Below are positions 24,101 to 50,330 of a stretch of DNA of 64,000 bases, one piece after another. Each line of letters starts with the position of its first letter. Positions within the stretch are counted from its first letter, which is position 1. Under the pieces are notes generated by a model. That model was not told the origin of the DNA. It saw nothing but the letters and a program-made list of their open reading frames with translations, and searched no databases. Origin of the DNA: Colius striatus (lineage: Eukaryota; Chordata; Aves; Coliiformes; Coliidae); the NCBI RefSeq assembly GCF_028858725.1, contig NC_084763.1, forward strand, positions 5,394,001 to 5,458,000. Reading direction: 5' to 3'. The translations under genes were made by a program, and so were the position numbers.

Positions 24101-27100
24101 CATAGATGGGTCAGAACATTAGAATTTAGAGGTCTTCCCCACACAGCTTTTAAAGTCTGTTATGTAGCTCAGGTAAGTCTATTGACCCTCCATGGGTTCA
24201 CTGCAAAGGGCTAAGAGGCAGGAAGGTTTTGGCTGCTGTGCATTTGAGTGAGAGCAGGGTGGAATGGAAAAGCTGTTGTATGTGTAAGTGCAGTTACTCT
24301 GCAGGACATGAGTAGCCACGTGCTGCTGAACACTTCCTTTTACAGAGTTTGGGTTGCCAGAAGGCATTAGCTGTGTTTCAATAAACACAGCTTCAGGTGA
24401 GGTGTGATCTGTTGGCTTCCACTTGTAGAGTCAGGGGGATTGTTGTGAAACTGAGCACCAAAGAATCCAACTTTTCAGCTTTGCATTTTTATTCTGGTGA
24501 ATCTGGAACATACCTGGTTTGAGATATCATCATAGCACCCACGAAATGTGGAGTGCAGCCACCTCATGCCTCCCTTCTCCTTGTGGAGATGTGTTTCCAG
24601 AGTATGACCCCCGTGACTTTCCTCCTCCAGGTAAGTCTTTCTGTAGTAGTTTAGTAAGGAGGCAACACCAAAGCTCTCGTGGAAGATGCAATCTGCTCAC
24701 ACCTCTCGTGCCACACAAAGCAGACATCACCACCACCTGTCCCTGCCTTGGCCCTGCAGGTGTACCTGACAGCCAGCACGGTGTACGGCCTGGAGGGGCA
24801 GCTCAGCAGCCTGGAGGACGCCGCGCGCAAGATCACCAGCGTCACTGCCGAGTCCGAGCTGGCCGAGCTGGAGGATCAAGTGGCCACGGCGGCCGCCCAG
24901 GTTCATCATGCAGAGCTGCAGGTGAGGACAGCAGCTCCTCCCTGTGTCTGCAGCCTTTACCTAGTTTTTTAGGTTGAACAAAAGCCTCTCGAGGTTTTCT
25001 GCCTAGTGCTTCTCTGTTCTCTGCACGCATGTACTTTCAATGAGCTTTTGCACTGCAGTGGACTGATGTTCTAAGGATGCTGTCCCAGATGGGTTGTGGA
25101 CTCTCCTTCTCTGGGGACATTCCAAACCCAGCTGGATGAGTTCCTGTGTGACCTACTCTAGGTGGTCCTGCCAGGGGGGTTGCACTGGTGGGTGATCTTT
25201 CAAGGTCCTTTCCAAACCTTAAGATTCTGTGACTCTGTGGTTCTGTCTGCATCACAGGAGCTGAGCAAGCAGAACTGAGCTGCGTAGTTCAACCCAGCCA
25301 GACGTGCTGTAGTTGTTTGTTTCCTCCCCCAGCCTGCTGATGGACATGGGAGCACAACAGCCTGTTACTGCAGTGCTAACACTGCTCCTTGCTGCCAGGC
25401 AGCTCACGCGCTGCGCTCCGTGTCACACGCCTGGCTGTGGTCAGGCTGCAAATACAGTCTGAGGCAGTTTATCCGCTCAGATGATTGTAAAGCACTCCCC
25501 AAAAGAAGCCAGTGTCAGTACTGTTCTACCAAAAAAAAGGTAAAACAGTCAGCTGCTGAGCAAAGCACAGCACCTGCACACTGCCTTGGGGCTTAGCTGC
25601 TCAAGCAGCGCACATCCCAGCCTAAAGACAAGGGCTCTGCCATCTAGAATCTCCATAGCAGGCTCCAGAAAATCCAGAGCTCAGGAGGGAACAGTGTGAT
25701 GTGGTGTTAAAAGCTGAATAAGGGAACCCTGCCAGGTCTCAAGAAACAACTGCTATCGACTGGCTGCCAGGGATGTCGCTGACCAGGCTGTACAGAGTGA
25801 AGGACTTTCTCCTGCCTGTGCTAGGCTGAAAAGGGAAGCAAAGCACCTGGAGATTTTCCTCAGTAGGAGCACGCTCACTTGAGGACTGAGCAAAGATGTG
25901 AAGGTCTGACATCTCTCTCATGTCAGAAGCACCTTGCTGCACTAGTGACAAGCTGGTGCAGTGACGTTTTGTTGGCTTCAGTCATTGCTTTACAGTAAAT
26001 AATGTTACTGGGAATGAGAGCTGAAGAGGAGAGAGGCCAAAGCTGGGCTAGGTAGGAGGATGACAAACAGACCAACAGAAAGCCTTCCTCAGAGTGAGCA
26101 GTTTCAGGTGTCATCCTGACTCAGGAGCTGAGTTATATGTCTGACTCCTCTGACACTTCTTTCCCTTTTGGCATCATTTGTTTCCACCGGTCTCAGCATC
26201 CAGCTACTTCTCCCCCCAGATATTTCCTTCCTTGGACTTTTGTCTTTTCCTGGCAATTTGTTTTCCACTGAGTTTTTTAATGTGGTGTGTACCTGCATTT
26301 CTGCATGTTGGCGTGTAGCACACACCCACACCTGAACTGAAAACATCAAAGATTCTGTGAGGAAGGATGGACTTTGTGTGTGCATGAGATTCCTTTTGGA
26401 TTAGGAAATGTCTCCCACAAAGTCCATCTTTGAATGTAGCCATTGAAAAACACAGCTTGAGTGAACCTGGGATCGTAAAGGTAAAAGCAACTGGGAGATG
26501 GCAGATGCAGGTTTTCTCTCCTCCTCTCTTATGGTTTTTTCCTTCCTCAAAAGGAGGAACATGCCTCTTCCTTGGAGTCACAAGGTAGGACTGTTCTTTT
26601 ACTCCACCTTTACTAACAAATTAAGTCCCTAAAGAGTACAGGAGAGTGTCAGAATTGCAGGAGCAGCCATCTGTTTGTATTCTGTGATTAAAGAGGATTT
26701 GACTGGGGGAGGGATGTATTTTAGCAGTGGCATCCACAGTAATTTTAAAACCTCTTTTTCCCCCTCCCCATCTTTCTGTCTCTCTCTCTCTTTTATTTCC
26801 TTTGAAGATTTCAGATATTGAGAGCAGAATATCAGCTCTCACTGTTGCAGGCTTGAACGTGGCTCCATGTGTTCGCCTGACAAGGAAACGGGATCAAAAG
26901 CAAACAAACCAGGTGCCAGAACATTATGTAGTATTCACAAATACATTGGGGAATTCTTGCCTCTTTGTCTGTTACAGAGTTGAGTTAATGCATGTGTGTT
27001 GTTTACAGATGCATACCATAGACACATCAAGACAGCAGAGGAGAAAACTTCCAGCTCCACCAGTAAAAGGTGTGTTGAGCTCGTTACATACCTTACAGAC

Positions 27101-28688
27101 AGGGAATCTCTCTTTAGAAGGTTCAATGTAATGTATAGTTCAGCAAAGTCAGGGAAAGATTAAGCTAATAAAAGGGACTAAATTTAAGATTAAGATAATA
27201 AAAGCCTCAATATGTCCATCCTCCTCATTTCCCACTGTACTTGCATGGCATAAGAACCCATTTGTCACCTTACAAAGCATCACTGGAGGTTGTGATGGTG
27301 GCAAATGAATAAGAGCAGAAGCGGCAGCAGAAGGCTGGGGAATGCACAAAAGGGGAATGCTGAGCCTTGCCCTGCAACAGGGCTGCCACTGCTGCAGTGT
27401 GCCCAGGCTCAGTTTGTGAGCCCCAAGCAGTTTTACAGTGTTTGGTGATCAAAAGCCCCATTGCGCCCCTCCACAGCCCACTGTTAGCTCTCTTAAAGCC
27501 AACGTGTGCTGATTTCAGTCCAGGTGATGTGGCTCAGCTGCATTCCTGGTGTGTTAGGGTATGGCTGTCAATTGGCTTTATAATCTTTTGTCTTCTTTTT
27601 TAACCCCCACAGTGCATTACCTCTGACAATTCTAGGGCCCATTTCACCTTGCATTTCTCTTGTTTTACTCTTGTGTAATTCCATTAATTGACATGACCCG
27701 AATCCTTAATAAATTTGGAGTATCCCAGCCTGATGGTTTTTCATTAAATTAAATCCAGCTCTCCTCACACATCCTAGGGGAAATTACAGGAGTATTATTA
27801 CATCTGTTTCAATCTGTTATGTCAAAAATCTCCCTTTTTTTGTGTTTTTCCTAGGTGAAAAAATAGATGGTTCTCCAATTACCACAGTCAGAACCTTTAA
27901 CAGAAACTTCATGCTTCAAGGATCCCTGACACAAAGGACTAAAGAGAGGAAAAGCACTGCCAAGGACTTAATGGTAACCTCCTAACAAATGCTTTTTAAA
28001 CTACTGTTAAAAGCAGTAAGTAGCCAGTGGTATTTGTTTAGGCAGATGTAGTTCAGCATCTTCATAAAACTTCTCTTAATAGTTTGAGGAAAAAGAGTAC
28101 AGGCTGTTGTAGCAGCTGTGAATAAATGCAACTGGTACCCTGGAAGATATCTGACTATAAACTGAGGAAAAAGAATACAGGCTGTTGTAGCAGCTCTGAA
28201 CAAATACAACTGGTGCCCTGGAAGAAATCTGACTCTATACTATAGTGTAGCAGCTGCTGAATGACAACCTGTGTGAATGTACCCTGGCTGCCAGGTCTCC
28301 AGGAATGTGCTTCCCTTATGGTTTTTTAACAGAAACAAGTTAATTGTCCCCCACATTTCAGGCTTCTGAGCCTGACTCTTCACAGCAGCAGCTGCACACT
28401 CGCTCAGCAGGTGAGAGGCATTGGCTCTGCAGTGTCTGCACAAGTAGGCTTCACTGGACAGCTGTCAGTCATTTCCCTACAGCAGCCATAGAGGGCTAAG
28501 GGAAAAAGCTGAGTGTCCCAAAGCAGTCTGACACTCCAGGTGTGGAAAATAGGCAGGGATGTGAGAAGGGGAAGGACACGGCTCACTAGAAGCTTTCAGG
28601 AGCTTGTTTTGTGTTCCACTCATGTTGGTTTCTTTCCTGTCCCTCTCTGTTCTAGGAACCTGCTATAGGATCTGCTGTGATGTACTAA
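1..28688 (+). CDS. MYRIP: MYRIP, 3' part of the coding region (join of nine exons)
   Basis: Join 1-115, 8151-8390, 22437-22631, 24760-24921, 26808-26912, 27009-27069, 27855-27973 and 28656-28688; eight segments are read here, the first cut by the window edge. They give about 342 residues in one frame, with every junction phase-compatible and every intron GT-AG. The protein is known to bridge Rab27a-GTP on melanosomes and secretory granules to myosin VIIa/Va and actin, and to anchor PKA near the exocyst; the N-terminal Rab27-binding domain lies outside the window. Visible here are an acidic Ser/Glu-rich linker, then a long heptad-type coiled coil spread over the exons at 22437-26912, a basic stretch (LTRKRDQKQ), the motif RRKLPAPPV, and a terminus ending SAVMY. 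These C-terminal landmarks match what I know of vertebrate MYRIP and not its relative melanophilin. Linkage to EIF1B agrees with human 3p22. The summary counts nine exons loosely; eight coding segments are those I can place. Confidence 0.95.
318..433 (-). mobile_element. CR1 3' end fragment
   Basis: Minus-orientation CR1 tail: tcacagaatggtaggggttgg, then the conserved ctgcagaagcagg and aggtcacacaggaac blocks. About 115 bp, severely 5' truncated, as is usual for CR1. Confidence 0.9.
1399..1612 (-). mobile_element. Old, diverged CR1 fragment
   Basis: Begins with aatcatagaatcattttggt, then a diverged CR1 body (gcctgggcagcctgttccaa, cattttrcctaatatccaat-like). It is clearly a different and older subfamily than the ggtaggggttgg copies nearby. 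Confidence 0.75.
2666..3075 (-). mobile_element. CR1 fragment
   Basis: Minus-orientation CR1 running from tcatagaatggtaggggttg through the [16 protein letters not shown]-encoding segment. The CR1 reverse transcriptase C-terminal frame is still partly open on the minus strand, ending near 2727. The inner end decays near 3075. Confidence 0.9.
3545..3888 (-). mobile_element. CR1 fragment
   Basis: Minus-orientation CR1 of the same subfamily as 2666-3075: gaatggtaggggttgggagg, then the cctccctgggcagcctgtgc block. Truncated near ttacaaatattaatgag. Confidence 0.9.
8151..8390 (+). CDS. MYRIP: MYRIP coding exon (80 codons, phase 0-0)
   Basis: Opens D-F-D-D-L-S-E-T-D and runs through an acidic, Ser-rich region ([16 protein letters not shown]) to IQEELKK at the donor AAG|GTGAGT. 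The acceptor is ttgtttgaag, an AAG rather than the commoner YAG, preceded by a pyrimidine-rich stretch. I prefer it to the upstream ctctacag at 8119, which would add a hydrophobic stretch and does not match the phase of the preceding exon. The acidic linker carries many potential phosphorylation sites. Confidence 0.93.
13715..14235 (-). mobile_element. CR1 fragment, second subfamily
   Basis: Minus-orientation CR1 whose tail reads aatcacagaatcttaagggt and whose body carries gtgcaaccccc and catctgggcagccc. It is a different subfamily from the ggtaggggttgg group. About 520 bp, 5' truncated. Confidence 0.9.
15801..16030. repeat. Two-copy tandem duplication, 122-bp period
   Basis: The segment starting tagccctgtgtaatgatggg at 15801 recurs as tagcctcgtgtaacgatggg at 15923. 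The copies differ at only a few positions across about 105 bp. The near identity points to a recent local duplication. The duplicated open frames on the minus strand are a by-product of it. Confidence 0.93.
19110..19828 (-). mobile_element. Longest CR1 copy in the window (about 720 bp)
   Basis: Minus orientation, from tcatagaatcatagaatggt to the segment encoding [18 protein letters not shown]-like residues. The minus-strand frame at 19773-19192 is still open for 193 codons and encodes the C-terminal part of the CR1 reverse transcriptase polyprotein ([20 protein letters not shown], then [10 protein letters not shown]). It lacks the 5' part and is not an autonomous element. The intact frame suggests a fairly recent insertion. 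Confidence 0.93.
19866..20097 (+). mobile_element. Old CR1 fragment whose 3' tail runs into a satellite
   Basis: Plus-orientation, diverged CR1 (ccaggggaagtttagactgg, gactggatgatcattttagg). Its 3' end reaches the point where the ATTCTATG-type octamers should follow; instead, repeats of tattctatcc/tatccctatc begin. Confidence 0.75.
20098..20505. repeat. TATCCC/TATCTC satellite array (about 400 bp)
   Basis: Imperfect array of tatccctatc, tctatcccta and tattctatcc units with higher-order variation. It has no stop in one plus frame (YPYPIPI-type repeats) and none in one minus frame (DRDRDRID-type repeats); both are artefacts of the period rather than genes. Confidence 0.97.
22437..22631 (+). CDS. 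MYRIP: MYRIP coding exon (65 codons, phase 0-0)
   Basis: The acceptor is cttgtaacaaaacag and the donor is GAAGAGAAT|GTAAGG. The exon starts [20 protein letters not shown] and ends [13 protein letters not shown]. The [17 protein letters not shown] segment is, from knowledge of the family, one of the most conserved parts of the C-terminal half. Its end starts the heptad pattern that continues into the next exon. Confidence 0.96.
22632..24759 (+). other. MYRIP intron (2.1 kb)
   Basis: Unique sequence with no repeat I recognise and no additional exon. Small open frames are unsupported. Confidence 0.7.
24760..24921 (+). CDS. MYRIP: MYRIP coiled-coil exon (54 codons, phase 0-0)
   Basis: The acceptor is ccttggccctgcag and the donor is CTGCAG|GTGAGG. 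The peptide [20 protein letters not shown] ... [20 protein letters not shown] ... has leucines and other hydrophobics at heptad spacing and is the core of the C-terminal coiled coil. The exon is strikingly GC-rich and keeps several CpGs (for example gacgccgcgcgcaag), unlike the AT-rich flanking introns. Confidence 0.97.
24922..26807 (+). other. MYRIP intron (1.9 kb)
   Basis: Contains one plus-orientation CR1 (25082-25245). The acceptor end carries a long pyrimidine tract (26755-26800). Nothing else was recognised. Confidence 0.75.
25082..25245 (+). mobile_element. CR1 3' end fragment
   Basis: Plus orientation: tcccagatgggttgtggact, then gtgtgacctactctaggtgg, ending in the tail attctgtgactctgtggttctg. 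About 165 bp. Confidence 0.88.
26808..26912 (+). CDS. MYRIP: MYRIP coding exon (35 codons, phase 0-0)
   Basis: The acceptor is tttatttcctttgaag after a long CT tract; like the exon at 8151 it uses AAG. The donor is AACCAG|GTGCCA. The peptide begins [20 protein letters not shown], the end of the coiled coil, and finishes with the basic segment [13 protein letters not shown]. Confidence 0.96.
27009..27069 (+). CDS. MYRIP: MYRIP coding exon (61 nt, phase 0-1)
   Basis: A short exon only 96 bp after the previous one. The acceptor is gttgtttacag and the donor is GTAAAAG|GTGTGT. It encodes [20 protein letters not shown], a conserved family motif with a proline-rich core. Confidence 0.96.
27070..27854 (+). 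other. MYRIP intron (0.8 kb)
   Basis: Unique sequence. No repeat or extra exon seen. Confidence 0.75.
27855..27973 (+). CDS. MYRIP: MYRIP coding exon (119 nt, phase 1-0)
   Basis: The acceptor is tgtgtttttcctag and the donor is TTAATG|GTAACC. It completes a glycine codon with the last base of the previous exon and encodes a Ser/Thr/Arg-rich segment ([30 protein letters not shown]). Confidence 0.96.
27974..28655 (+). other. MYRIP last intron, with tandem duplication
   Basis: This intron of 682 bp holds a two-copy tandem duplication (28086-28238, listed separately). No other feature. Confidence 0.75.
28086..28238. repeat. Two-copy tandem duplication, 78-bp period
   Basis: gaggaaaaagagtacaggct at 28086 recurs as gaggaaaaagaatacaggct at 28164, with the following gttgtagcagct and ccctggaaga blocks also repeated. 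Several substitutions separate the copies, so it is older than the duplication at 15801. Confidence 0.92.
28656..28688 (+). CDS. MYRIP: MYRIP last coding exon and stop
   Basis: The acceptor is ctctctgttctag. It encodes [10 protein letters not shown], then TAA at 28686-28688. The short terminal exon and the SAVMY ending match the known end of MYRIP, fixing the C terminus. Confidence 0.95.
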   Translation, partial: EPAIGSAVMY

Positions 28689-32999: not shown

Positions 33000-33408
33000 T
33001 CTTTCAACCACTACTTCTTTATTTTTACATATCAACAGCCATGGGCCTTGAAATGCAACAGGAAGGTTTCATGGTAACACTTTTAACACCGCAGAGTTTA
33101 AATCCCAGCACAAAAACTGTGTCTGGTTTGGGGAAAAAAACCCTAACGTTACAGTGAACAGCATCAGGAGACTGGTGGGGATGTAAGACAAAGGAACATT
33201 TTGTTAAGCTGTGGTGGCACTGAGGTGGCACCTGGTGCTAGTGTCTATGCATTGTCTTTTACCCTCCCCCTGAACACGTTTCCTTGTGAAGGAACTTGCA
33301 CGGGGAGCAGGAAGAAAAGCAGTGTGGGATTGCTCAGCAAATGCAGAGCCAGAGGCCTAAGGTGATGGGGAGGGTGAAAATTTGAAGAGCAGAGGTTGGT
33401 AACAGAGA
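33000..33408 (-). other. PRLH2: PRLH2 3' UTR and poly(A) signal
   Basis: On the minus strand AATAAA lies at 33023-33018, about 390 bp past the stop codon. It is the first canonical signal in that direction, so a 3' UTR of about 0.4 kb is inferred. Confidence 0.7.
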
Positions 33409-33581
33409 TCACCAGTCTTCTGTGTCTGCCACTTTTTGCTGCCACAAAGCGTTGAGGATGAAATCCAGGCGTGTGCTCACAGGCCTCGGCCTACCGCGGC
33501 TGCTCCTCGGCTGCCTCTTCCCAAACCGCCCGATGGGGCGGACGCCACGGCCCACGTACCAGAAAGGATCAATCTCAGGAC
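33409..33581 (-). CDS. PRLH2: PRLH2 exon encoding the mature RFamide peptide
   Basis: The acceptor on the minus strand is tgattgctttgaattccag; the exon begins with the last two bases of the Ser codon. It encodes PEIDPFWYVG, RGVRPIGRF, G-KR, then the spacer QPRSSRGRPRPVS and the tail TRLDFILNALWQQKVADTED-W, stop TGA at 33411-33409. The segment is GC-rich with many CpGs inside AT-rich DNA, which helps it stand out as coding. Confidence 0.95.
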
Positions 33582-35601
33582 CTGGAATTCAAAGCAATCA
33601 GTGAAAGGCACTTAAAGGCAGCGTTTCTTGAACGTCTCAAGAGTGTTAGATGACTTATTGCTCGTCTAGCAAAAAAAACCCCAAGGCTACAGCCAGATGT
33701 AGAACCTGCTGGTGCCTTTGAGCGTTGCTTTCCATGTGGAGAGCCCAAAGATTCAGCTGATTAACTTTCATCCATCTGGGCAGCAAGCTGCAAGTATAAG
33801 CCAACATACCCATTGAGTTCAGGAGGGCACAGCGTGCTTTAAAACTCATCTGAACACTGGAAGAGGTTGTAATGCAGCCTACATCCAGAAAGGCCACCAT
33901 AGCTCGCTGTGTCCCCACTTTGAAACTGTCTCCTCTTAGCTGAAGAAGTCCTGGAGCTCCTATTGCCCGGCCTCCCCTTGTGCTGGACGCACCAGGTAAG
34001 CTATCTCTACAGGCTAACAAACCCACTGGGCTGCAGAAGGGGTTCCTACACGAGAGGTAAAAGTGAAAAGCTCATTCTTGTTTGCTTATGAAGTTGTTTT
34101 GGTGGATGGCTTGTTTCTTATAAAGCATCTGAAGTACACTTGATTTGTTCTTACAGACTAGTTTTAGTGGTGGGGGGGTATAGTTGTATTAAAAGACTAG
34201 GACATAGCAACGGGGAAAATCTGCAAAGCACCAAGGAAAGGCCAAATAATTCCAAAGCCAGAGAACTATCAGGAGGAGGAGAAAAACATCAATGTAAGAG
34301 CATTATATATCACAGAATGGCTGGAAGGGACCTCAGAAGCTCATCCAGTCCAACTCCCCTGCCAGAGCAGAACCACCTAGAGTAGGTCACACAGGGACTC
34401 ATCCAGGTGGATTTGAATGTCTCCAGAGAAGGAGACTCCACAATCCATCTGGGCAGCCCCTTCCAGTGCTCCCTCACCTCAACAGGGAAGAAGTTTTCCC
34501 TTGTATTTCTTTGGAACCTCTTCTGTTCCAGCATCTACCCATTGCCCATTGTCCTGCCATTGGCCATCACTGAGAACAGCCTGGCTCCATCCTCCTGACA
34601 CCTTCCCTTTAGGTAACTGGGCAAGGCAGCAGGATTTTCCCTTGTGTGTTTTGATGCTTGAACATAGAAAATTAAAAATCCCCATTGGCTGTAAATTTCT
34701 CCATAAATACATCTTTTAAGTCTTTCTATGCAGTGTTTGACACCCCTCCTGCCCACCACAACCCAAGTAACTTCATGTATTTCACCTGGATGCCTAAAAA
34801 CTGAGGCTCCCAACATCTCCAGTCATCTTTTTTATGGTGAAAGGTGTTCCACCAAGAGCCCACACACCTTATTCCCACTTGACATGGTATCATCAGCCTT
34901 TGCTCCTTGTGGAGAGGTGAGATTTCCTGATACAGATATTCTCAGAAGCGTTTTGGACTGGGGGTTAGCTTTTACTGGGGCTGTATGGGACTGCCCCTCA
35001 CCCAGCCAACCTCAATTCCTCACAGCATCTCTGAACGGAGGCACCTCAACCATTTGTATTTTGCCTTTCAGACAACTTGTGGTTCCAGACAGAAATGAAG
35101 ATCTCTGGAAAGCACACTGAAGCTTCAGGCCTTTGCTTTCTTGTCACTGTATAGAAGTAGTTGTGAACTACCCCAGGTCTACAGAAGACAGAAATTTGAT
35201 GGTATGCTGCCTCACGTTTTCTTTGTCCATCTCTTGGACATTAGTGTCTCTGAAATTCTGCAGCTTGCCTTGGCCAATGAAGGGCTGTGAGGAGGACATT
35301 AGGTTCTGTGCATGCACTTACAAGTGTAAATGGAAATACAGGACCCCCTCCTTTCCCCACAGGAACACCCACATGGCTTTGCAGCTGCCTGACAGCCCGA
35401 TCCTGATCCCTCAGCGGCACCATCGCCTTACATCAGGTGACGCTTGTACTTACTCCTGTTGTCTATCTGATGTTTCGATGGCCTGCTCTGTCCTGAAGCA
35501 AAGCTGAGCGAAACCAAGAGCACCAGCACGTAGACAGTGACCAGCTTTAAGTGCTTGGGTGACCACTGGGCACGTGGTGTCCACAAGATCAGATGCCACA
35601 T
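33409..35601 (-). CDS. PRLH2: Prolactin-releasing peptide 2 (C-RFa) preprohormone
   Basis: Complement of join(33409-33581, 35454-35601): 321 nt, 106 residues plus TGA. Residues 1-37 form a signal peptide (hydrophobic core LVTVYVLVLLVSLSF; likely cut after ASG). A single Arg (residue 49) precedes SPEIDPFWYVGRGVRPIGRF at 50-69, followed by Gly (amide donor) and Lys-Arg (dibasic cleavage). An Arg-rich spacer and a C-terminal tail ending ADTEDW follow. The Arg-Phe-amide end, the IRP/VRPIGRF core and the peptide length are those of carassius RFamide / PrRP2, the paralogue of PRLH; mammalian PrRP has a different mid-region. The split Ser codon (A|GT) joins the exons exactly. It is a secreted ligand for PrRP-receptor-type GPCRs. 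Symbol use varies (PRLH2, PRRP2, C-RFa). It lies convergent to MYRIP and divergent from EIF1B. Confidence 0.94.
33582..35453 (-). other. PRLH2 intron (1.9 kb)
   Basis: Phase-1 intron separating signal peptide from hormone. Contains a CR1 copy at 34311-34612. A 123-codon minus frame at 34026-33655 is not supported as coding. Confidence 0.85.
34311..34612 (-). mobile_element. CR1 fragment in PRLH2 intron
   Basis: Minus-orientation copy of the second subfamily: tcacagaatggctggaaggg, tctgggcagcccc, then cctgacaccttccctttagg at the truncated end. About 300 bp. Confidence 0.9.
35454..35601 (-). CDS. PRLH2: PRLH2 exon encoding the signal peptide
   Basis: ATG at 35601-35599 has A at -3. The reading frame gives MWHLILWTPRAQWSPKHLKL, then the hydrophobic core, SFASGQSR and KHQIDNR, ending in phase 1 at the donor GGA|GTAAGT. 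Translation from this ATG gives a rather long n-region for a signal peptide. The exon body starts at 35623 after the acceptor tttttatccttgcag, so the in-frame ATG further upstream would be intronic. No other in-frame Met lies before the core. Confidence 0.9.
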
Positions 35602-35623
35602 GATGGAGCAAGCAGTGGGAAGG
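35602..35623 (-). other. PRLH2: PRLH2 5' UTR part of the signal-peptide exon
   Basis: 22 bases between the acceptor (cattttt-atccttgcag) and the start codon. Together with the leader exon near 38.27 kb this gives a 5' UTR of roughly 75 nt. Confidence 0.6.
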
Positions 35624-38243
35624 CTGCAAGGATAAAAATGAACGAGGAACATTTGTGAGTTAAAGCTCTGAAGGTAAAGGAAGGTGGTAACTTTATGTTC
35701 CTACCCATCAGAGATGTTTCATGACTAAATTCTGTGAAACATTGATGCTGGGACAAGCTTTTCCTCTTTAGATCAAGAGGGAAGGGCCTCAGGTTGTGCC
35801 AGGGGAGGTTTAGATTTGATATTAGGAAAAACTTCTTCACTGAAGGGTTGTCAGCCCCTGTGCCAGGCTGTCCAAGGAAGTGGGGGAGTGCCCAGCCCTG
35901 GAGGGACCCCAAAGCTGTGGAGCTGAGGTGCTGAGGGCCGTGGGTGAGTGATGGGCTTGGTAGGGTGAGAGGAGGGCTGGGACTCCAGGAGCTTAAAGGG
36001 CTTTTCCAACCACACAATTCTGTGGGGATGTTGTGGGTATTTCTGTTTGAAGGCAAAGGCTTTGCAGTGAGCTGGCTACAGAGGCAAGCCTGTAACTGCA
36101 GGGGTTTTCTCACCGCCAGTGAAAGCCTCGTGTCAGGGCTTCACACTCGAGTCCTGGCCCTCAGCTCACTGCTGGCTTGGTGTGTCCCTGGGCACTGGCC
36201 ACCAAAGTGTGTTTTATCCACTACCTCCATCATCCTTCCCTCACTTGCAAACTATGTCTAACATTGACATTTTACCCACTGTTTTTACAACAAAGTGCAT
36301 TTCAGTATGAAAAGGAACACTCCTCCTGTGTCCCCACTCCCTTTCCCAGCCAACATGCAGAACTGCCACTTCCAGGTATGGTTTCCACTGGTAGATGTCC
36401 TGATCCTGTAAATGCTCTCAGGTACAAACAGATCAGAAATATCCCCTGCACACACTCCCTGAGAAGGGCTGTGCAGCACAGCAGGTGCTGAGCTGGGACA
36501 ATTGCACCCAGAGGTGGAGGATCAGGCTCAGGCTTCCCTGCACCCCATCCCTGGCGCTTTGTAAAGGCTTGTTTGCAGCGCTGGCACAGGCTGTCCCGTA
36601 GATACACAGGTACAGGGAATCTTCCCAGCTCTGCCTACACTGAGGCTTCTCTTTGTGTACTGGTGGCATTTGCCCCTCCTTGCTGCCCACAGCTGCTTTC
36701 AGTACAGGCAGAGCAGGAACACAAAGCTCTCGATGCAGGATGCTCCCAGGCACACTGCACAGACACCTCAACAAAAGCACTTGGAGAACCTGCTCGTGTC
36801 TTTCATCAAAACCTCCTTAACCTTTAGTTTCCACTCGGGGTTTGTTGATTTTTTTCCCCCCTACACTGACAATTACTTGACAGGCAGCTTACTAAAAAGT
36901 TACTTTACCCCCTGACTTCCACAGAACTGTGGATTAACGTTTTCTAACTTGAGTATCTCACAACAGTCAGGACTAGATGCAAAACGACACAGGATCAATT
37001 CTGCCTTCAGGTTCAGCTGGTGTCTATCTCTTGTTGCTCACAGGACTGCTGACAGGGTTTCCAGATTACTCACAGTCTGCTTTTGTGACTTGTTTTTCTG
37101 GGAACTGATCAGAAAGGAAAGGCTTGCTGTGGGCTCACTTTTGTTGATAAAGGACAAAATACAGTGGAAAGCTTTTAGCACAAGCTCCTTCCTAAGCAAT
37201 GCTGTGTCTCAGCCTCCTCCAGCTGGTCCTGTACCTGAGTCTGCCATTCTGGCCACCTTCTAGAGTTGCCATCAGTTATTGAACTTTCTGCTCCTACCCT
37301 TGACCTGGCTGAGATTTCAGTGAAGAACATACTGCTTGCTGCTCCTCACATACCCTCCCTAAATAATCAGGGGGCTCAGCACCTCCGATCCTCTCTACTT
37401 TTTCCTCCTTCTAATCATCCCACCCCTGTTTATATGGAGAGAAACCGAGGCAGAGATAACAACACAAGCTTGACTCACACACTCCATTTCCAACCATTAA
37501 ATGACCACCAAAAAGTTTTACTGGTTTCAGCAAAACTTGACACAATTAAAGTTTCAGGAAAAACTCTGGAGCTCAGCAAAAGTTTAGGTCAACTTGCCAC
37601 CTTCTGCTTGGTCCCTAAGCTTTCAATTTTGGCTGAGCAACACCACTGATAGGAGAGGAGAAAGTTAAAGCCATTAGCCAAGCTACAGGGAAGCAGCAGG
37701 GTCGCAGCTTGCCATGGGTCTGCCCCACATGAGCAGTGAGAGACCAGCCTGGCTCTCCCTCTGGGCACACAGATTTCTCTCAGCACACCAAACTCACTCT
37801 GCTGCAGATCCATCAGGTCTAAGCTTACTGTGAGGACAAGATGCTATTAACTCTCTAAAATAGCATCTTACTTGGACTCAGCAGCTGTGTACTCCCCCTG
37901 CGCTGCAAAAGCGAGTAGCTTTCGTGTTGGAAAGCAGCGTTGGCAATCCCTGCAGGAGATCAAAGCCTGGGTGAAGCCAGGCCTGTGGCCACAGCCCTCA
38001 GTGCAGGGCTGGGGGACAGGAAAAGCAGCCTGGGTGCTGCAGGCTCCTGTGTGCTCTCCCTGCAGGGCACCTTCAGCCAGGCTGCACCGGTGCCCTCTCC
38101 ATCACTCCAAAAACTGGGCACAAGAGTGCAGAGTGCAGCTGCCTACATTAGTTCAGGGGAGGGAAAGCCCCAAAGGAAAACAAGGAAACCCAGAGGGAAA
38201 GAGCCAGGGAGAAGCACTGAGGCAGATAGAGGGAGGCACTCAC
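35624..38243 (-). other. Inferred PRLH2 5' UTR intron (2.6 kb)
   Basis: It joins the leader-exon donor CAG|GTGAGT to the acceptor at 35624. It contains an old CR1 at 35785-36025. Open frames inside are unsupported. Confidence 0.55.
35785..36025 (+). mobile_element. Old CR1 fragment
   Basis: Plus orientation, diverged: gggaggtttagatttgatat, aggaaaaacttcttcactga, and the end gcttttccaaccacacaatt. Same old subfamily as 19866-20097. Confidence 0.8.
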
Positions 38244-38295
38244 CTGTCTGCAGCCAAGCTGCTCCGCAGGTAGCCACAGCTCCGAGCAGAAGCTG
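38244..38295 (-). other. PRLH2: Inferred PRLH2 leader exon (5' UTR)
   Basis: On the minus strand, about 30 bp after a TATA box, a short stretch ends GGCTGCAGACAG|GTGAGTG, a near-perfect donor. The transcription start is inferred at about 38295 from the TATA position. No ATG-started frame is needed here; the exon would be purely untranslated. Confidence 0.55.
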
Positions 38296-38318
38296 GGCAG
38301 CTGCTGGGGGCTCGTGCC

Positions 38319-38325
38319 TTTTATA
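38319..38325 (-). promoter_or_regulatory. TATA box of the PRLH2 promoter
   Basis: TATAAAA on the minus strand, within ccagTATAAAAGGcacg. A strong TATA box about 30 bp before the inferred leader exon fits a tightly regulated neuropeptide gene. No CpG island is present here, in contrast to EIF1B. Confidence 0.65.
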
Positions 38326-38356
38326 CTGGAGGGAAGTGGGCTTGAAGCAGGGGGGG

Positions 38357-38386
38357 TGAGTCAAGAGGTGGGCCAGGAGGACGTCA
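38357..38386 (-). promoter_or_regulatory. AP-1 and CRE-like sites upstream of the TATA box
   Basis: A perfect AP-1 core (TGAGTCA / TGACTCA) lies at 38357-38363 and a one-mismatch CRE (minus strand TGACGTCC) at 38379-38386, about 35-60 bp upstream of the TATA box. CREs at this distance are typical of neuropeptide promoters such as somatostatin and VIP (established knowledge). Their use here is inference. Confidence 0.45.
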
Positions 38387-41300
38387 GCAGTACTAGTGAG
38401 CAAAATTTAAATGTACAAAAGGAGGGGTAGGGAAGTGTGGCTCTGTTGGAAAGCCATTGATCAGGGCAGGGAGCAGGAGCTGTGGTGGAGCTGGGGGATT
38501 CTGAGGGGGGACTGGCAGGACAGAGGGCTAAGGGCCCCAGCCCACCCAGGGGAGAGAGGAGGGGAGGAGGCTGCTGCTACGTCCCTGGGGATGAGGGGGG
38601 GACACAGGCAGAGCTGAGCAGCACCAGCAGCCATGCTCTGCACCAAGGAGCCAAGCTCTGCCTGCTGCCCAGCCAAGACATGGGCCCTGAGGCACGTCTG
38701 CAGGGGCAGAACACCCATGGCAAGGGAGTGAGGTGTGGGGAGGAAGAGGGGACACGCAGTGGGAAGCTCTCAGGGCCACCAAGCTGGAGCAGTCAGTGCA
38801 CACCCCCCTTCCCAGCCCTTGTTCCTCTTGCTGTTGTCCCTCCTCTGCTTTTTGCCTGGGATCTCACTTGATGGCAGCTCTTGTCCCATCCAGCCCTTAA
38901 CCCACAGCCGGCGTCAGTGCACCCACACGTAAGATTTAGGCCGTGTGGCAATGCAGCACCCAAGCAGCTGATGAAATCAGTTGTGATTGAGTGCTTAAGC
39001 AAGTGCTTACTGGTAGGAAGTCGGATGTGCATCAGGTTAGTATCTGGAGCAATATTGTGTTTGTACAATAGGCGTCTCTTCTGCGCTGGTATTTTTAGCT
39101 CTGTCTCCTAAGTAAGGTGTCAGTGCAGTCTTGCCCTTGGAGATCTCACTGTTTTAATAGCTGAGACTGTGTTGCCTGTCAAAGTTTGTGGAGGAGCAGC
39201 AGTGGAACTGGCAGATGTTTCATTCCCTGGGCACCATCCTACGAGAGGCTGAGATGGGAGGCATCTCTGGGCTGCCCAGGCACTGCAGGCTCCCTTGCTG
39301 AGGCCTTTGCAGACGCAGGGTTGTGCTCTGCTCCTGGTGAGACTCACTAACCTGAAGAAACCACTAAGCTGTGCTTAGAAGAGGGGGCTCAGAGGCATGA
39401 CCTGATCCACAAGCAGAGGCTGGGTAGGAAATGCTGCAGTCCCATTAGGATGAAGTGGAAGTTGAACAACAAATCTATCACAGGCTTTGTCTCTAAAGAT
39501 GCTTCCAGTTGGGAAAGCCTCAAAGTACAAATGACACTGTTGCACTGCAGGCACCTCCCAAAAGAAATGAGATTATGGGTTTTTCCCTAGGGACAATTTG
39601 CGGGGTGCTTCTACAAGGGAGCTTCTACTGGCATTGTTCCCGGCTCTGCCCTTACTCAGTACCCAGGCATCGAGTGGGTGACCTCAGCACAGTGGGGTAT
39701 GGCCACCAACTGTGGGGACTGCAAGAATTGTCTCATTTCTGTGTAACAGTTTGCTCTGGGGCATGTTTATGGACACAAATGGTAAAGAAGCCTGAGAAAC
39801 ACTCTTCCGTTCTCCAGTTTCCAGCTAGTAACAGCTACAACAAGAGTCTTCCTCATCCAGGCTTTCAAGAGTTTACTCAGACTACTCAGGATGACAACTG
39901 CAAAACATGGAGAGCACTTCAAGTCCACGATAGCACAAAAGGTCTTTCTCCAGCTAACACAATCAATAATGTATATCCACACTTTCCTCAGCAGCCTCCT
40001 TTCAGCGTGTTCCCTTTGAACCTGCCAACGCTCCCTACCTAAAGATCAATCTGACCCGGGAACCAGGCTTCCGCTGCATGAGCTCTGGCTGCAGCGTGGA
40101 GGGGGATCTTCTTAAAGCTCCTCGTGGTTTTGCATCATAGATATCTTCCCTTACAGCTCTTCACATTGTTTTTTAGACCAGAAATGTGGGTATCCTTTCT
40201 TGATCTCTAGCGAGCGACTGCTGGAGTGAGGGCTTTTTCTCTCCGGGATATGTAGGAAGGACCCTGCCCTGCTCAGCAGGGGATCATTTGAGATGATCCT
40301 GTCATCTCAAAACAGAAGTAAAAGCCTTTTTCATCCTCTTTTTCTAGCCTTGCTGGTGCTGCAGCACGAGCCTTTGGGTGGCCCGGATCGTTTCCACCGA
40401 TCGATACCTGCGTGGCAGTTCCCACGGCAGATCAAACTGCAGCGCTTTCATCTCAACGTGCTTTGCTTGTTGGGAAAAGCTGCCTGCAAAATAACATGCC
40501 ATACAAGGGAAAATCATTATTAGGAGAGACAGCATTTCAAATGCTCTAGTGTGACGAGGACTGAGGTCTGTCTACTGCTGTTTCTTGTTTTTTGCTGGTG
40601 GCCAGCAAAGAAGAGCTCGGGAAGAGACTTAACAATTAGCAATGAAGACTAATAAACCATGTGGCAGTCTATTTAAATGAGGCATTCCTCTTACCAAAGT
40701 ACTGCTTTACTTCATCCTCACTGACTGGTAGTTATCATTTCTTTCCCCCAGCCCGCAGCTGATCTGCCAGAGTGTTCTTTTCAGTACTCAGAAGCTTCAC
40801 AGAAGTCATCCTGACTTCTCAGGGCCTTTGCAGCAGCTGCCACTTTGTTTCATTTTACTTTGTCACCCTGCTCATAGCAGGGCTGAGGAAAGCTGAGGTC
40901 ATGCAGCACAAAAATGGGGAAGCCACTCAGATTTGAGAGGAACTGGAGGGGGAAGAACTGTCAGGGGAAAGGGGTGATGCAAGAGGGAACAAGGGAGATC
41001 ATTTAGCGGACAGCCTGGTCTGCAGTGAAGAGGCAGAGGTTTGTGGGTTAAAACCTTCCTCTTTTTTCTGTGGTTCTGAGAGGCTGTGCACATGCTCTCT
41101 TCTTGGGAAGGTCTCATGTCCATCAGTTTCCTACCCCACACCCAGCCAAGGGCTTCTGCACATAAATCTCCCGTGTAGGTTATGGGAGGCAGGAGTAGGG
41201 CTGAGCCTGCTGTTAGCTGAAACATCTCAGTACCAAACTCCACAACCTGGGATGCTCTAAACCCAGAACTTCTATCTGTACTTCTTTTAGAAGGAGCCTT

Positions 41301-43492: not shown

Positions 43493-45074
43493 ATGAGACA
43501 CTGGCCAAAGGCCTATTGCCACCAATGGCTGCTCTAGAGAACTGTTCATGGTGGTTTTAAGGATCTTCTTGGCTTGTAAAGAAGCTTTGTTGTCTCCCAG
43601 TCACCAAATCTCAGTTGTCTGTCAACTGTGTGATGAATCCCACAGATGTCCAATGAGCCCATAGGTCTGGGGCAATCCTTCAGTGACAACTAGAAGTAGA
43701 AAACTATTTTAAGTGGATGAAGATTCAAAGCAAGCACAAGAACTGCCCCAGTGAGCAAACAACTCACCTAAATCTACAGAACTTGGACTTGGGATTTGTG
43801 TCTGGAGACCCACTGTCCCCTCATCCATGGCCAAGTCTGTCCCCAGCCTCTGTCCTCTTTGGTTGTCCCAGCACAACCGTGGCAGGATTATGGTTTTAAC
43901 CTTTGAGTTTCTTTTTTAACTCACATCAGTTTGCTGATCTGGCTCACCACAGTGCCCCACACACAGTGGTACTGGCCCAGGCCAGGTGGTAAAACCCAAA
44001 GGTTTCATGGGATGATGATGGGGGAGCAAAAGGCAGAATAAAATTTTACAGAGAGATGTAGAGTTTGCAAAACTGCATCGCAGCCAGAAGTTCCCCACAT
44101 CATTAGTAGTAATGTAAGGTGCCTGAGAGGGGTGCTGCATCTCCCCATCCTCCCGTTACAGCCCAAATCCAGCCTTATGCAGCTGAGTGGGAAAGAGCTG
44201 GACAGCCTCTGCAGCCCCTGCTGCAGCGAAAGGCGTCATCAGCAACGACAGCAAAGGGGAAGCAGAGGTGGTGTACCATGGCAAATGGCAATGTGTTCCC
44301 CAAGAGAAAAAGGAAAGCTTCCTGCAAAGTGCCAGGGAAAGAAACTGTCTGAGATTGACACTCATTGACATTCGTAAAAGTACTGCAGTGCTGGCCCAGG
44401 CCTTGGATCTCAGGAGAGAAACATCCCTTTCGTTTGAGAACACCAAAGCTTAGCATAAAAGCCATAAAACCAGAGAGATACAGGTTGTGGCACTTGTGCC
44501 AACACAACGAGGTTATGGTACATCTGCAACGCCATTAATCCCCTCCTGAAGACTGGCACGGGGGATGGTTCCTCCTCTCCTGCACATTTGCGTTACCGTT
44601 ACACGTACACTGCACACACATTGAACTTATTTACGTGGGGTCTGTCCCCTTTGGGCACATGCTTTTAATCACAGGCTCTCTGGGTCGTCATCTCCGTGTT
44701 CTTTCAGCCCAGAGCATGGGCATCACCAGTTTGTCAATGTCCTTCCTCCCTATCACCGTCACTACTCCTTCACCACCGAGTTCCGACGCTTTGCTTTGTG
44801 TCTTGCTCTACGTCTTACACCTACGTCCTGGACGTCTGCAGGTAGCCGACATCTGCACCCTAGGTGTTTTAAGGCAGATGAAGCTAAAGCTAGAAGGGAA
44901 CGTTCTATGTCAAGGCCATAAGCCTCAGCACGGGTTCTCCCACACCGCCTGAGCGGAGCACGGCTGCGCGGAGCAGGCAGCCGGCGGGGAACGGAACAAA
45001 ACGGGGCGGGGGGCGCCGTGGAGCGGCAGCGCGGCTGTCAGGGCCCGTCCTGCCCCGCACCGTGCCGCCGGGCT

Positions 45075-45257
45075 CTCTGGGAGCTGTAGTCCGCGGCTGC
45101 CGGGGCCGGTCCTGCCCGGGAGCGAGCGGGCGGGCCCGTGCCGGCGCCGGGCTCTCTGGGAGCTGTAGTCCGCGGCTGCCGGGGCCCGTCCTGCCCGGGA
45201 GCGAGCGGGCGGGCCCGTGCCGGCGCCGGGCTCTCTGGGAGCTGTAGTCCGCGGCCA
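45075..45257. repeat. 79-bp tandem repeat with ZNF143-like motifs
   Basis: The block ctctgggagctgtagtccgc starts at 45075, 45154 and 45233 with an exact 79-bp period; intervening DNA (gcccgggagcgagcgggcgg) is also repeated, giving about 2.3 copies nearly identical in sequence. The reverse complement of the block reads ACTACAGCTCCCAGAG, close to the ACTACAAYTCCCAG part of the ZNF143 (SBS) promoter motif. Confidence 0.9.
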
Positions 45258-45578: not shown

Positions 45579-45609
45579 ATGTCCTCTATCCAGAACCTCC
45601 AGTCCTTCG
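45579..45609 (+). CDS. EIF1B: EIF1B coding exon 1
   Basis: ATG at 45579 inside the CpG island. Encodes [10 protein letters not shown] plus the first base of Asp; donor TTCG|GTAAGA (phase 1). Confidence 0.97.
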
Positions 45610-48600
45610 GTAAGAGCCGCCGGCGCCGCGGGGCCCCCAGCCGCGCCGAGCCCCCAGCCGCGCCGAGCCCCGCCGGGCCGTGCCTCGGAGGCTCGCTGCC
45701 CCTGCAGCCCCGCCTGCTCCCGCTGCCCCTGCAGCTACGGCATCCCAGGGAGATACTGCTCAGTGCCTGCTGGCATCCCAAACTGGGCTTTTCTGTCAGC
45801 TCTCGGCCCCAGAGTTGCCATTTTTGTGCGTGGGTGGGGTGGCTGTGCTTCGTGTCCTCTGCTAAGGAAGGGGACGGTCTCCTCAGTTCCCGTTGCTTGT
45901 GGGTTGCTGCTTGATCTCCTTGCCGATGTCCCAAAGCCTGGTAATACGCCCTGCAAAGGGTACTGTTTATGTAGGCTGAGCTGCCGATGGTCAGTCATTT
46001 CTCCTGTATTAGTGTCCTGGGCTGGGGTTTGCCTTTCCTATCTGTAGGCAACAGAGCAGGTTAACACTTTATACAGTAACTTTATCGGGCTTTTGGTCTC
46101 AATTCAATCTCTAATCTTCTGCACATAAAAAGGTTGCAGTTGTCACGATTTGGGAGCTGCTCCTGTGCCCAAAGGATAGGGTTGAAGTGATCCAGTGTTA
46201 ACACCTTCAGCTCTAAACCAGCTCTGCTAAGTGATCTTCACACTCGAGTTCCCTCTTTCTGTCAGCTTTTATTTGACTGGAATGTTCTAGTAGTTTTTGT
46301 CCCACAGGCTCTGGAGCACAGTGAAATGCCTTAGTAGGTGTTAAGCCAGTCAAGCTTCCCAGTTCCTGTGCTGTTTGCATCCTCGTCCTGCTTTCCTATT
46401 GCTTTAGTGCTCTTGTCAGTCTTGGTTCTCCAAGGGTAAATCTGTCTGCAGCTGAACTACTTCTGTTCTATTTTTCTGCTGAAGGTTTGCTCTCTCGGGG
46501 CATTTGTTTCAAGTGGTTGGCAAAACTTGTATCGGTGGTTTTAGGTTTGAGTTTTGGATGGAAGTTGGAGAAATGCCTGCACTTCAGGGTGGTTCTGATC
46601 AGTATCAAAAACTAGTTCTGGTTTGTCTTCAGGCACTTCATGCATAAAGATGTGTTTGGAGCTAATTATTAGGGAACTTGTGAGGCTGTAAAACCTCTCG
46701 ACAGTGGGAGTGTTCGGTGTGAGAACAGAGACTTGCAGAAATATAACTTGGAAACCCTCCTTCTTCCTAAACTCCTGTGCTAGATTAAATTTAAGCTTGG
46801 AAGGATTTGGGAAGCGACCTTTCTGTAGCTTAAATGAACTTTGTTACAATTCTTGCCTGAAGCTACTGACTGGCAGCCGGGTGCTGGTTTACAGACAGCC
46901 TCTGGCATCTGTTAGTGTCTGTTGTGTTTTGTTTACAGCAGCAGCCAAGGATTACATCCCTGCCTTAAACCACTGGTATTGTGGTAGTTCAGGTATAAGG
47001 CTTTATGTTCCAGACTTGTAAAGGGGCTGGTTTTATTTCTCTGTCCTTATCAGTTGATCTGAGAAAAGATAAGGCTTTGCTGTCTGACATAAAACACGTG
47101 GCTAAAACTCACGTGCACTTGCTGCTTAGGTGCATGTGATGTCTCCTGGAACCGTGGAAAAAAGCTGGAACACAAAAAGTTCCATTGAAACATAAGGAGA
47201 AACTATTTCCCTGCTGAGGTGAGGGAGCCCTGGCACAGGCTGCCCAGGGAGGGTGTGAAGGCTCCTTCCTTGGAGGGCTTCAAACCTGTCTGGACACCTT
47301 CCTATGTGACCTGATCTAGGTGAACCTGCTTCTGCAGGGGGGTTGGACTGGGTGATCCCTAAAGGTCCCTTCCAACCCCCACCATTCTGTGATCCAACAG
47401 TTCTGTGTTTTGAAATGTAGGCTTTCAGAATTTAGAGTTTGCAAGAAGTCTGACCTGATCTAGGTGGACCTGCCTGTGAGACTGCATCTGGAATCTTGTG
47501 TCCAGTTCTGAGCCCCTCAGATCAAGGACAGGGAGTTGCTGGAAAGAGTTCAGCACAGGGCTGCAAACATGATGGATTGGAGCATCTCCCTTGTGATGAA
47601 AGGCTGAGGGAGCTGGGGCTCTTCAGCTTGGAGGAGACTGAGGGGTGACCTCATTCATGGTTACAAATCCATAAAGGGTGGGTGTCAGGAGGATGGAGCC
47701 AGGCTGTGCTCAGTGATGGCCAGTAATAGGCCAAGGGGCAACGTGGACAAGCTGGAACACAAGAAGTTCCAAAGAAACACAAGGAAGAATTTCTTCCCTG
47801 TTGAGGTGAGGGAGCACTGGCAGGGGCTGCCCAGATGGGCTGTGGCGTCTCCTTCTCTGGAGACATTCAAACCCAGCTGGATGAGTTCCTGTGTGACCTA
47901 CTCTAGGTGGGCCTGCTCTGGCAGGGGAGTTGCACTGGATGAGCTTTCCAGATCTCTTCCAGCCCTTGAGATTCTGTGTGACTCTGTGAAACGGTGAAAT
48001 AAATGGCTACTGAGAAGCGTTGGAGCAGCTGGATGTGATCGTCACGAGCGCTGTCATTACAGTACTCTGAGCAGCGTATTTTTAAACGGGGAGAATACAG
48101 CAAGGTTTTTCCTTAAATAAAGCTCTTAGTGAAGCAAGCAGCTCAAGCTTTAGTTTCTGAGCGTGGGTGATTGCATTTGTGGGAATGAGCTGAATCTTTC
48201 TCCTCCTGCAGACCCCTTTGCTGATGCAACAAAGGGCGACGACTTGCTCCCGGCGGGGACTGAGGATTACATTCACATAAGGATCCAGCAGCGGAACGGC
48301 AGGAAGACACTGACAACTGTCCAGGGAATTGCAGATGATTATGACAAGAAGAAACTTGTGAAAGCTTTCAAAAAGGTGAAGTTGCTGATTTGATAATATA
48401 TTCCATGAAGGGATTTGATAGACTCACCTGGACATGTTTCCTATGTGACCTGATCTAGGTGACCCTGCTTCTGCAGGGGGGTTGGACTGGATGATCTCTA
48501 AAGGTCCCTTCCGACCCCTACCATTCTATGATTCTGTGATATGATGTTTCTTCACTCTTACCCAAGACACATCACTCATTCAGGGTGACCCTGCCTTCCT

Positions 48601-50330
48601 GTGTCTAGTGACACTGATTTTTGCTACAGAGTTAAACAGTTTGTTCCTATAAAGAGTTAAATGATATTCTGAAGGTTTCACTAACATTTCCAAGGTATCT
48701 GAATGTGAAGGATAAAATCAGTTTAAAGCAGAACTGTTGAAAGTAGAAGCATTCCTGCTGCTGCCATAGCTGGATTGCTGCTGAAAATGGACATCTGGAG
48801 TTTCCCCAGGACTAAAACATTTATTTACAAACAATGTGCAGTGGGAAGGCCATGTCTGATGACTTTGTTTTCCATTCTTGCAATGGATGTTGGGCAGTTC
48901 CTTCTGCATAGCAGCCAGCCTTTGCCTGAATTTACCATCAGCAGTCTAGTTTGTGTATGTATGTGGCAGTAGATAAGCGTGAAATAGATGTAGCCTTTGC
49001 TTTTCTTGGCATCAGTAAGCAGCTTCTGTGACCAAGTTCTGCTGAAAGGACTTAGTAAGCAAATTGGTAATGTTACATCAGATGTCTTACAAGATGAATG
49101 TTTCTCTCTAGAAATTTGCTTGTAATGGCACTGTGATTGAACATCCTGAATACGGTGAAGTTATCCAGCTTCAAGGTGACCAGAGAAAGAACATTTGCCA
49201 GTTCCTCTTGGAGGTGAGAGACTGCAGATAAATATCTAAACCCCTCTGGAAGCAACACAGTGACAGGTGGAACTGACATTAATTAACCAGCTAAAGATGT
49301 CCACTAGAGTTCCTTTGCATTTTCAGCCAAATGGTAAAATGACACTTGCACTGTGAGACTGAAGCCCCTGGTAAGAACCAGAGCACTGTAGGATGCCTTA
49401 ACACACACCACTTGTTCTGCAGCAGAGCAGCTGGGCTTCTTCCTTTGTAAAATCAAGTGTTTGGTGCCTGCTGTAATGTCGAGGCTGATAACACTATAGA
49501 TGACAGAGTACTGTGGAGTCCTGTGTCCAGTTCTGGGCTCTTCAGCTCAAGAGAGACAGGGAAGTGCTGGAGAGAGGCCAGCACAGGGCCACCAAGATGA
49601 TCAGGGGAGTGGAGCATCTTCCTTATGAGGAAAGGCTGCGGGGACTGGGGCTGTTTGGAGAAGAGGAGACTGAGGGGGAATCTCATTCATATTTACAAGT
49701 ATACAAAATGCTCGGTGTCAGGAGGGTGGGGCAGCACTTTTTCCTATTGTATCTGGTGGCAGGACAAGCAGTAATGGGATGAAGCTGCAATGCAAACAGT
49801 TCCATTTAAACATAAGGAAAAATTATTTCCCTGTTGAGGTGAGGGAGCCCTGACACAGGCTGCCCAGGGAGGGTGTGGAATCTTCTTTGGAGGTCTTCAA
49901 GACCCACCTGGACATGTTCCTGTGTGACCTGATCTAGGTGACCCTGCCTCTGCAGGGGGGTTGGACTGGATGATCTCTAAAGGTCCCTTCCAACTCCTAC
50001 CATTCTGTGATTCCATGATTTACTGAGGGAAATCACGATCAGAGGTGTTGCACTCTCAAAGAATGAGTGCTGGGACTACTGAAGTCATCAGATGTCCATT
50101 AAGGTTCTCTTATTTGTGTTAGTTCTGCTTGTCCCAGAAACATTCTGGAAACTAGAAAAATGGTTTATTGAGTAGATACTGTATTGCAGTTTCTTTAATC
50201 AAAAGAGAAGGTTGTAGTAACTTGGTATCAGTGTAATCCTGTAAATGTTTGAGCTTTACTGAAATATGTTGCTTTTCTCCTTTAGATTGGCATTGTCAAG
50301 GAAGAACAACTGAAAGTTCATGGTTTCTAA
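45579..50330 (+). CDS. EIF1B: Eukaryotic translation initiation factor 1B
   Basis: Join 45579-45609, 48212-48375, 49112-49213 and 50286-50330: 342 nt, 113 residues, the exact family length. eIF1-type proteins bind the 40S subunit next to the P site and enforce stringent AUG selection, leaving on start-codon recognition; they act in the cytoplasm in the 43S/48S complexes. The protein carries the whole SUI1 domain (ITTVQG-type core seen as [20 protein letters not shown]) and ends LKVHGF. The start [16 protein letters not shown], and the tail [18 protein letters not shown] identify the EIF1B paralogue, not EIF1 (which has FLVEIGLAKDDQ). All introns are GT-AG and phases match. Being split, it is not a retrocopy. 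Confidence 0.98.
47161..47394 (+). mobile_element. CR1 3' end fragment
   Basis: Plus orientation: aagctggaacacaaaaagtt, ggagccctggcacaggctgc, ending accattctgtgat. About 230 bp. Confidence 0.92.
47451..47990 (+). mobile_element. CR1 copy (about 540 bp)
   Basis: Plus orientation, second subfamily: gtccagttctgagcccctca, through gggctgcccagatgggctgt, to the tail attctgtgtgactctgtg. The first ~20 bases (tgacctgatctaggtggacc) look like a piece of another CR1 subfamily joined at its 5' end. Confidence 0.9.
48212..48375 (+). CDS. EIF1B: EIF1B coding exon 2
   Basis: Acceptor tttctcctcctgcag; 164 nt encoding [20 protein letters not shown] through [10 protein letters not shown]; donor AAAAAG|GTGAAG (phase 0). 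It holds the first half of the SUI1 domain. Confidence 0.98.
48425..48540 (+). mobile_element. CR1 3' end fragment in EIF1B intron 2
   Basis: Plus orientation: acctggacatgtttcctatg, ggggttggactggatgatct, ending ccattctatgattctgtgat. Only 50 bp downstream of the exon 2 donor. Confidence 0.92.
48541..49111 (+). other. Remainder of EIF1B intron 2
   Basis: Unique intron sequence ending in the acceptor tttctctctag. Nothing recognised. Confidence 0.8.
49112..49213 (+). CDS. EIF1B: EIF1B coding exon 3
   Basis: 102 nt, phase 0-0, encoding [20 protein letters not shown] through ICQFLLE, the second half of the SUI1 fold; donor GAG|GTGAGA. Confidence 0.98.
49214..50285 (+). other. EIF1B intron 3, half made of CR1
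   Basis: About half of this 1.1-kb intron is the CR1 at 49510-50019; the rest is unique and ends in the acceptor ttgcttttctcctttag. Confidence 0.85.
49510..50019 (+). mobile_element. CR1 copy in EIF1B intron 3 (about 510 bp)
   Basis: Plus orientation, from tactgtggagtcctgtgtcc to the tail accattctgtgattccatga. An open frame (49513-49782) encodes the CR1 peptide [20 protein letters not shown], then shifts. Confidence 0.93.
50286..50330 (+). CDS. EIF1B: EIF1B coding exon 4 and stop
   Basis: Encodes [14 protein letters not shown] then TAA at 50328-50330. Confidence 0.98.
   Translation: MGIVKEEQLKVHGF

Follow-up and report, generated by a model that had tools for sequence, protein, structure and literature searches.

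A probable bird PrRP2 (C-RFa) preprohormone gene in the interval between MYRIP and EIF1B

The stretch of DNA analysed here (the window, 64 kb) covers positions 5394001-5458000 of contig C7 in a bird genome of 1.21 Gb and 191 contigs, and it carries a short neuropeptide gene on the minus strand between MYRIP and EIF1B, which are both on the plus strand. On the MYRIP side, four of the 23 plus-strand frames tested matched this gene (between 7995 and 27985), with matches to its C-terminal profile PF04698 at 7995-8426, 24658-24969, 26703-27128 and 27734-27982. The open frame with the last MYRIP coding exon found lies at 27734-27985 (PF04698, E 2e-16) and ends in a stop codon at 27983-27985, and another coding exon was placed at 24760-24921, where the open frame matches PF04698 with E 3.2e-29 and the borders were taken from a simple splice-site scan. 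On the other side, the EIF1B coding region (45579-50330) was located with an EIF1B query sequence and is made up of exons at 45579-45608, 48211-48375, 49112-49213 and 50286-50330, which encode 113 amino acids. The placement between MYRIP and EIF1B, proposed in a preliminary description of this DNA, is thus borne out on both flanks. The peptide gene is arranged tail to tail with MYRIP, with the stop codons 5.4 kb apart, and head to head with EIF1B, with 7.3 kb between its putative TATA box and the EIF1B ATG.

Several repeats and open reading frames are also present in the window. A 79-base unit is found in 2.4 copies with 99% matches at 45066-45255, in a CpG-rich stretch directly upstream of EIF1B, and a 78-base unit in 2.0 copies at 28085-28241, about 100 bases past the MYRIP stop codon. 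Further away, a 122-base unit occurs in 1.9 copies at 15799-16027, and a long CTATCC-type array at 20104-20501 is the source of an arginine/aspartate-rich ORF at 20235-20528 (minus strand), which is most likely an artefact of that array. The mutually related ORFs at 2727-3134 and 19192-19773 (minus) matched no Pfam family at E≤0.1, and we take them to resemble the tail of a CR1-type LINE. Around the peptide gene itself (33000-38500), the repeat search yielded no more than imperfect inverted pairs and two-copy matches 21-32 bases long, and no Rfam family was matched at gathering thresholds within the 64-kb window.

Splicing of 35623-35454 to 33581-33409 on the minus strand gives a single open frame, which starts with the ATG at 35601, closes with a TGA whose last base is 33409 and encodes a 106-residue precursor, MWHLILWTPRAQWSPKHLKLVTVYVLVLLVSLSFASGQSRPSKHQIDNRSPEIDPFWYVGRGVRPIGRFGKRQPRSSRGRPRPVSTRLDFILNALWQQKVADTEDW. 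Exon 2 (35454-35623) carries the end of the 5' UTR, the ATG (35601-35599), the leader and the first 11 residues of a 31-residue peptide, PrRP2-31; it holds 148 coding bases (49 codons and one base), hence the junction is in phase 1, and its 5' border is set by a putative CTTGCAG acceptor before 35623. The coding part of exon 3 (33409-33581) contains the 20-residue peptide PrRP2-20, an amidating Gly, a Lys-Arg pair, a C-terminal propeptide and the TGA. The intervening intron (33582-35453, GTAAGT...CCAG) is 1872 bases long, and its donor (A/GTAAGT, where the slash marks the junction) and acceptor (ATTCCAG/GT) are both near consensus. The spliced translation and the GT-AG sites agree with the two minus-strand exons, the phase 1 junction and the 106 residues described beforehand.

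Upstream of exon 2, a putative promoter TATA box (TATAAAA) is found at 38319-38325 (minus), together with a putative non-coding exon 1 at 38244-38295 (minus), the 5' end of which was put, as a guess, some 30 bases downstream of the TATA box and which ends in CAG/GTGAGT, a donor-like site at 38243. Between them, the TATA box at 38325, the donor-like site after 38244 and the CTTGCAG before 35623 point to a possible first exon that is non-coding. Downstream, a candidate polyadenylation signal (AATAAA) lies at 33018-33023 (minus). The possible exon 1, the TATA box and the AATAAA motif were all absent from the preliminary description and are added by the present analysis. Some 55-60 bases upstream of the TATA box, TGACGTCC at 38379-38386 (minus) is presumably a CRE-like site; a scan for sigma-70 promoters gave no match, which is uninformative for bird DNA.

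The precursor matches the Pfam prolactin-releasing peptide family PF15172 over residues 40-75, a region that spans the exon junction, with an E-value of 1.2e-19 and 70.2 bits, which exceeds the curated cut-off of 27 bits. Exon 3 by itself scores 52.6 bits (3.5e-14) against this family and exon 2 by itself matches no Pfam family at E≤1, so that the membership of exon 2 is drawn from the 17.6 bits that it adds, from an alignment with PrRP31 in the PDB and from its hydrophobic leader. In the PDB, the top matches were PrRP31 (9k26_F, residues 39-69, E 1.8e-7) and PrRP20 (8zps_L, 8.9e-5), with 16 of 31 residues identical to PrRP31 by manual count. The hydrophobic stretch of the leader, judged by eye, covers residues 21-35 and is preceded by about 20 residues, which is long for a leader. 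Weaker Pfam rows for the precursor (LEAP-2, 0.0023; DUF1639, 0.011; CarS-like, 0.16) were each under the curated cut-off and were rejected.

The processing sites named in the preliminary description were all located at their residues in the translation: a predicted cleavage site at Arg49, a 20-residue peptide at residues 50-69, the amidating Gly70 and Lys71-Arg72. Ser50 is split across 35454/33581, with residues 51-69 of the mature 20-mer at 33523-33579 (minus) and the amidation donor and Lys-Arg cleavage site at 33514-33522 (minus). The sequence has the C-terminal RFamide-type end GRF-G-KR, from which amidation is predicted. The description had missed a 31-residue form, SRPSKHQIDNR-SPEIDPFWYVGRGVRPIGRF, which aligns with PrRP31 and in which exon 2 contributes residues 39-49 (SRPSKHQIDNR) and the first base of Ser50 from 35454-35487 (minus).

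The locus is therefore read as the bird PrRP2 (C-RFa) preprohormone gene, with a probability of about 0.96; the identification first suggested is upheld by the PF15172 match, by the 20-mer SPEIDPFWYVGRGVRPIGRF, which is identical to the printed peptide, by linkage to MYRIP and by a separate PrRP1-type gene elsewhere in the genome. In chicken, the reported parts of the PrRP2 system are alike in the mature 20-mer (reported identical to that of teleosts), the 31-residue form and the MYRIP linkage, with a preproPrRP2 of 108 amino acids (PMC4226156) against 106 here; the chicken gene is listed as Entrez 420716 and UniProt B0LF68 (PMC2873334). The C-RFa-type 20-mer of grass carp is given as 100% identical to those of zebrafish, salmon, alligator and chicken, and all 20 of its mature residues are identical to SPEIDPFWYVGRGVRPIGRF, within a precursor of 118 amino acids as opposed to 106 (PMC8595397). 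The grass carp paper calls this C-RFa-type peptide PrRP1, so that the names PrRP1 and PrRP2 are reversed relative to the 2014 review (PMC8595397; PMC4226156). A naming slip may also let the gene escape searches. The C-RF amide peptide gene of zebra finch is another bird member of the same gene (PMC2873334).

The gene at this locus is an already known gene and not a new one. The novelty implied by the preliminary description does not hold, as both the linkage to MYRIP and the absence from mammals are stated in the 2014 review, and the zebra finch gene was catalogued in 2010 (Entrez 100226474, with EST DV949637 from brain microarray ESTs; PMC2873334). According to that review, PrRP2 is present in chicken, frog and fish, and shares a chromosome or scaffold with MYRIP in chicken, frog and zebrafish (PMC4226156, citing Wang et al., 2012); it has not been identified in mammals, and human MYRIP, on chromosome 3, is not accompanied by a PrRP2 gene (PMC4226156). 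The suggestion that mammalian remnants be sought between MYRIP and EIF1B was largely anticipated through the MYRIP linkage; EIF1B occurs nowhere in that review. In another paper, C-RFa receives only a passing mention (PMC6693279).

A PrRP1-type paralogue is present in the same genome. Across the whole genome PF15172 gave three matches at E≤10, two of them above the cut-off (exon 3 of the window gene, and C11:24015584-24015682 with 58 bits); the third, on contig C1 (E 6.7), falls under the cut-off, contains one stop and is regarded as noise. The control for this search gave a match in one of 14 genomes (Haloferax volcanii), with none above the cut-off. The C11 gene (L002) splices to a PrRP1-type precursor, MKMRSICLLCLLLAFLTLPIAHGHIRERSMEIR/N-PDIDPSWYTGRGIRPVGRF-GRR, in which the intron has the same Arg/xP place and phase 1 as in the window gene. 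This model was chosen by likeness among 10 donor-acceptor combinations; it pairs the acceptor at 1502 with the first AGGAGTAAGG donor of two. The two AGGAGTAAGG copies (L002:1216-1240) are 15 bases apart and form two possible in-frame donors, which would add or drop five precursor residues. The two genes have in common a leader, an R/xP phase 1 intron and RFG followed by two basic residues, and the C11 gene differs in its PDIDPSWYTGRGIRPVGRF core and its propeptide. Two paralogues with one architecture fit an origin from a single ancestral gene, as stated by the review (PMC4226156).

The paralogue bears on whether the window locus could itself be the PrRP1 (PRLH) gene. The two share a Pfam family, but the PrRP1-type gene sits elsewhere, on contig C11, and the 20-mer in the window is that of C-RFa and lacks the RGIRPVGRF ending, in a locus linked to MYRIP, so that this assignment is highly improbable. 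Still less credible is the idea of non-coding DNA in which an RFamide-like motif occurs by chance, which draws on the shortness of the exons and on the missing family match of exon 2 by itself; the PF15172 match of the precursor (E 1.2e-19) argues against it, as does the DNA pattern of the peptide core, which occurs at one place in the 1.21-Gb genome, with 0 places for the reversed-pattern control. Within the window, the pattern R[FY]G[KR][KR] has one occurrence across the six frames. Viral contigs were also scanned for relatives, and none of the 17 pattern matches was upheld by tblastn, which is no surprise for a gene from a bird.

Of the alternatives, the one we would rate highest is that the copy, although it appears intact, has fallen silent or is decaying; its probability is nevertheless very low. 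The frame is open, the splice sites are near consensus and TATA and polyadenylation motifs are present; the 20-mer is unchanged relative to fish and chicken; for chicken expression has been reported, and for zebra finch there is an EST. Judged on these features, the PrRP2 gene is not a pseudogene.

Receptors for prolactin-releasing peptides were sought in the genome with a fragment of human GPR10 (at least 125 matches at E≤0.001; 150 of 232 candidates scored), and then with the bird's own best match (at least 74 matches at E≤1e-12; 117 of 314 candidates scored). Among the matches listed, the top-ranked PrRP-receptor gene in both searches was C10:32892879-32893910 (L005/L017), which is open for 361 codons between stops and for 344 from the first ATG, and is 63% identical to the GPR10 fragment over 216 residues. 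Nine of the 12 loci from the GPR10-fragment search (L005-L013) were translated, together with seven stretches representing six more candidates (L025-L031), and three proteins (L005, L006 and L007) were compared with the PDB. The best PDB match of the C10 receptor was the PrRP receptor (1.8e-131); the next best genes after it were NPY2R and an NPY2-like receptor, with L006 and L007 both best matched to NPY2R. The remaining inspected loci presumably encode receptors of the NPY, GPR83, somatostatin, bombesin, CCK, galanin and tachykinin types. The C10 receptor is read from its sequence as PrRP-R1, because PrRP-R1 is described as the orthologue of the mammalian receptor (PMC4226156).

In chicken, three PrRP receptors have been reported, one of them PrRP2-selective. 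Neither a PrRP2-selective receptor (PrRP2-R/C-RFaR) nor PrRP-R2 was seen among the inspected matches listed from both searches, which may reflect loss or a miss; since only part of the candidates were scored and few matches were inspected, this absence is kept as a lead. It is possible, though we lean clearly against it, that the PrRP2 ligand has been kept letter for letter with PrRP2-R/C-RFaR and PrRP-R2 gone, and that PrRP1 and PrRP2 share one receptor in this bird. A GPCR survey gives extra receptor sets in three birds (of five covered), in seven sauropsids, and in six for the third set (PMC6504862), which makes a loss shared by all birds less likely. Among the 10 papers listed of 719 that matched, a literature search on receptor loss showed nothing beyond the review (PMC4226156), which is not taken to mean that it is unpublished. 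A missing PrRP2-selective receptor would bear on the target of the peptide and not on the identity of its gene.

On the model of known systems, the leader would direct the precursor into the secretory pathway, where signal peptidase would release PrRP2-31 (SRPSKHQIDNR-SPEIDPFWYVGRGVRPIGRF), convertases would cleave at Lys-Arg and at Arg49, and the Gly would become a C-terminal amide. PrRP2-31 and PrRP2-20 would then act through G-protein-coupled PrRP receptors, here at least one of the PrRP-R1 type; in the human receptor, the seating of the RF-amide end and coupling to Gq or Gi have been described (PMC11369081). By analogy with reports on chicken, the peptides would influence feeding and pituitary hormones; PrRP2 mRNA and both peptides are reported from chicken brain, and feeding of chicks was stimulated by the 31-mer and unaffected by the 20-mer (PMC4226156, section 6 for feeding). 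In zebra finch, the C-RF amide gene gave no response to song (P 0.69, 0.43 and 0.69; PMC2873334).

The PrRP2 gene described here represents a known neuropeptide precursor in a clear form from a bird, and since two short exons share its coding sequence, it can help annotation. The MYRIP and EIF1B flanks refine the published linkage to an exact interval in which mammalian remnants can be sought. The receptor count, if real, would outweigh the gene itself, as it raises the question of which receptor has kept the peptide so perfectly conserved; receptor loss, if true, would show in nature a peptide that has survived the receptor dedicated to it, and possibly a halfway stage of the loss seen in mammals.
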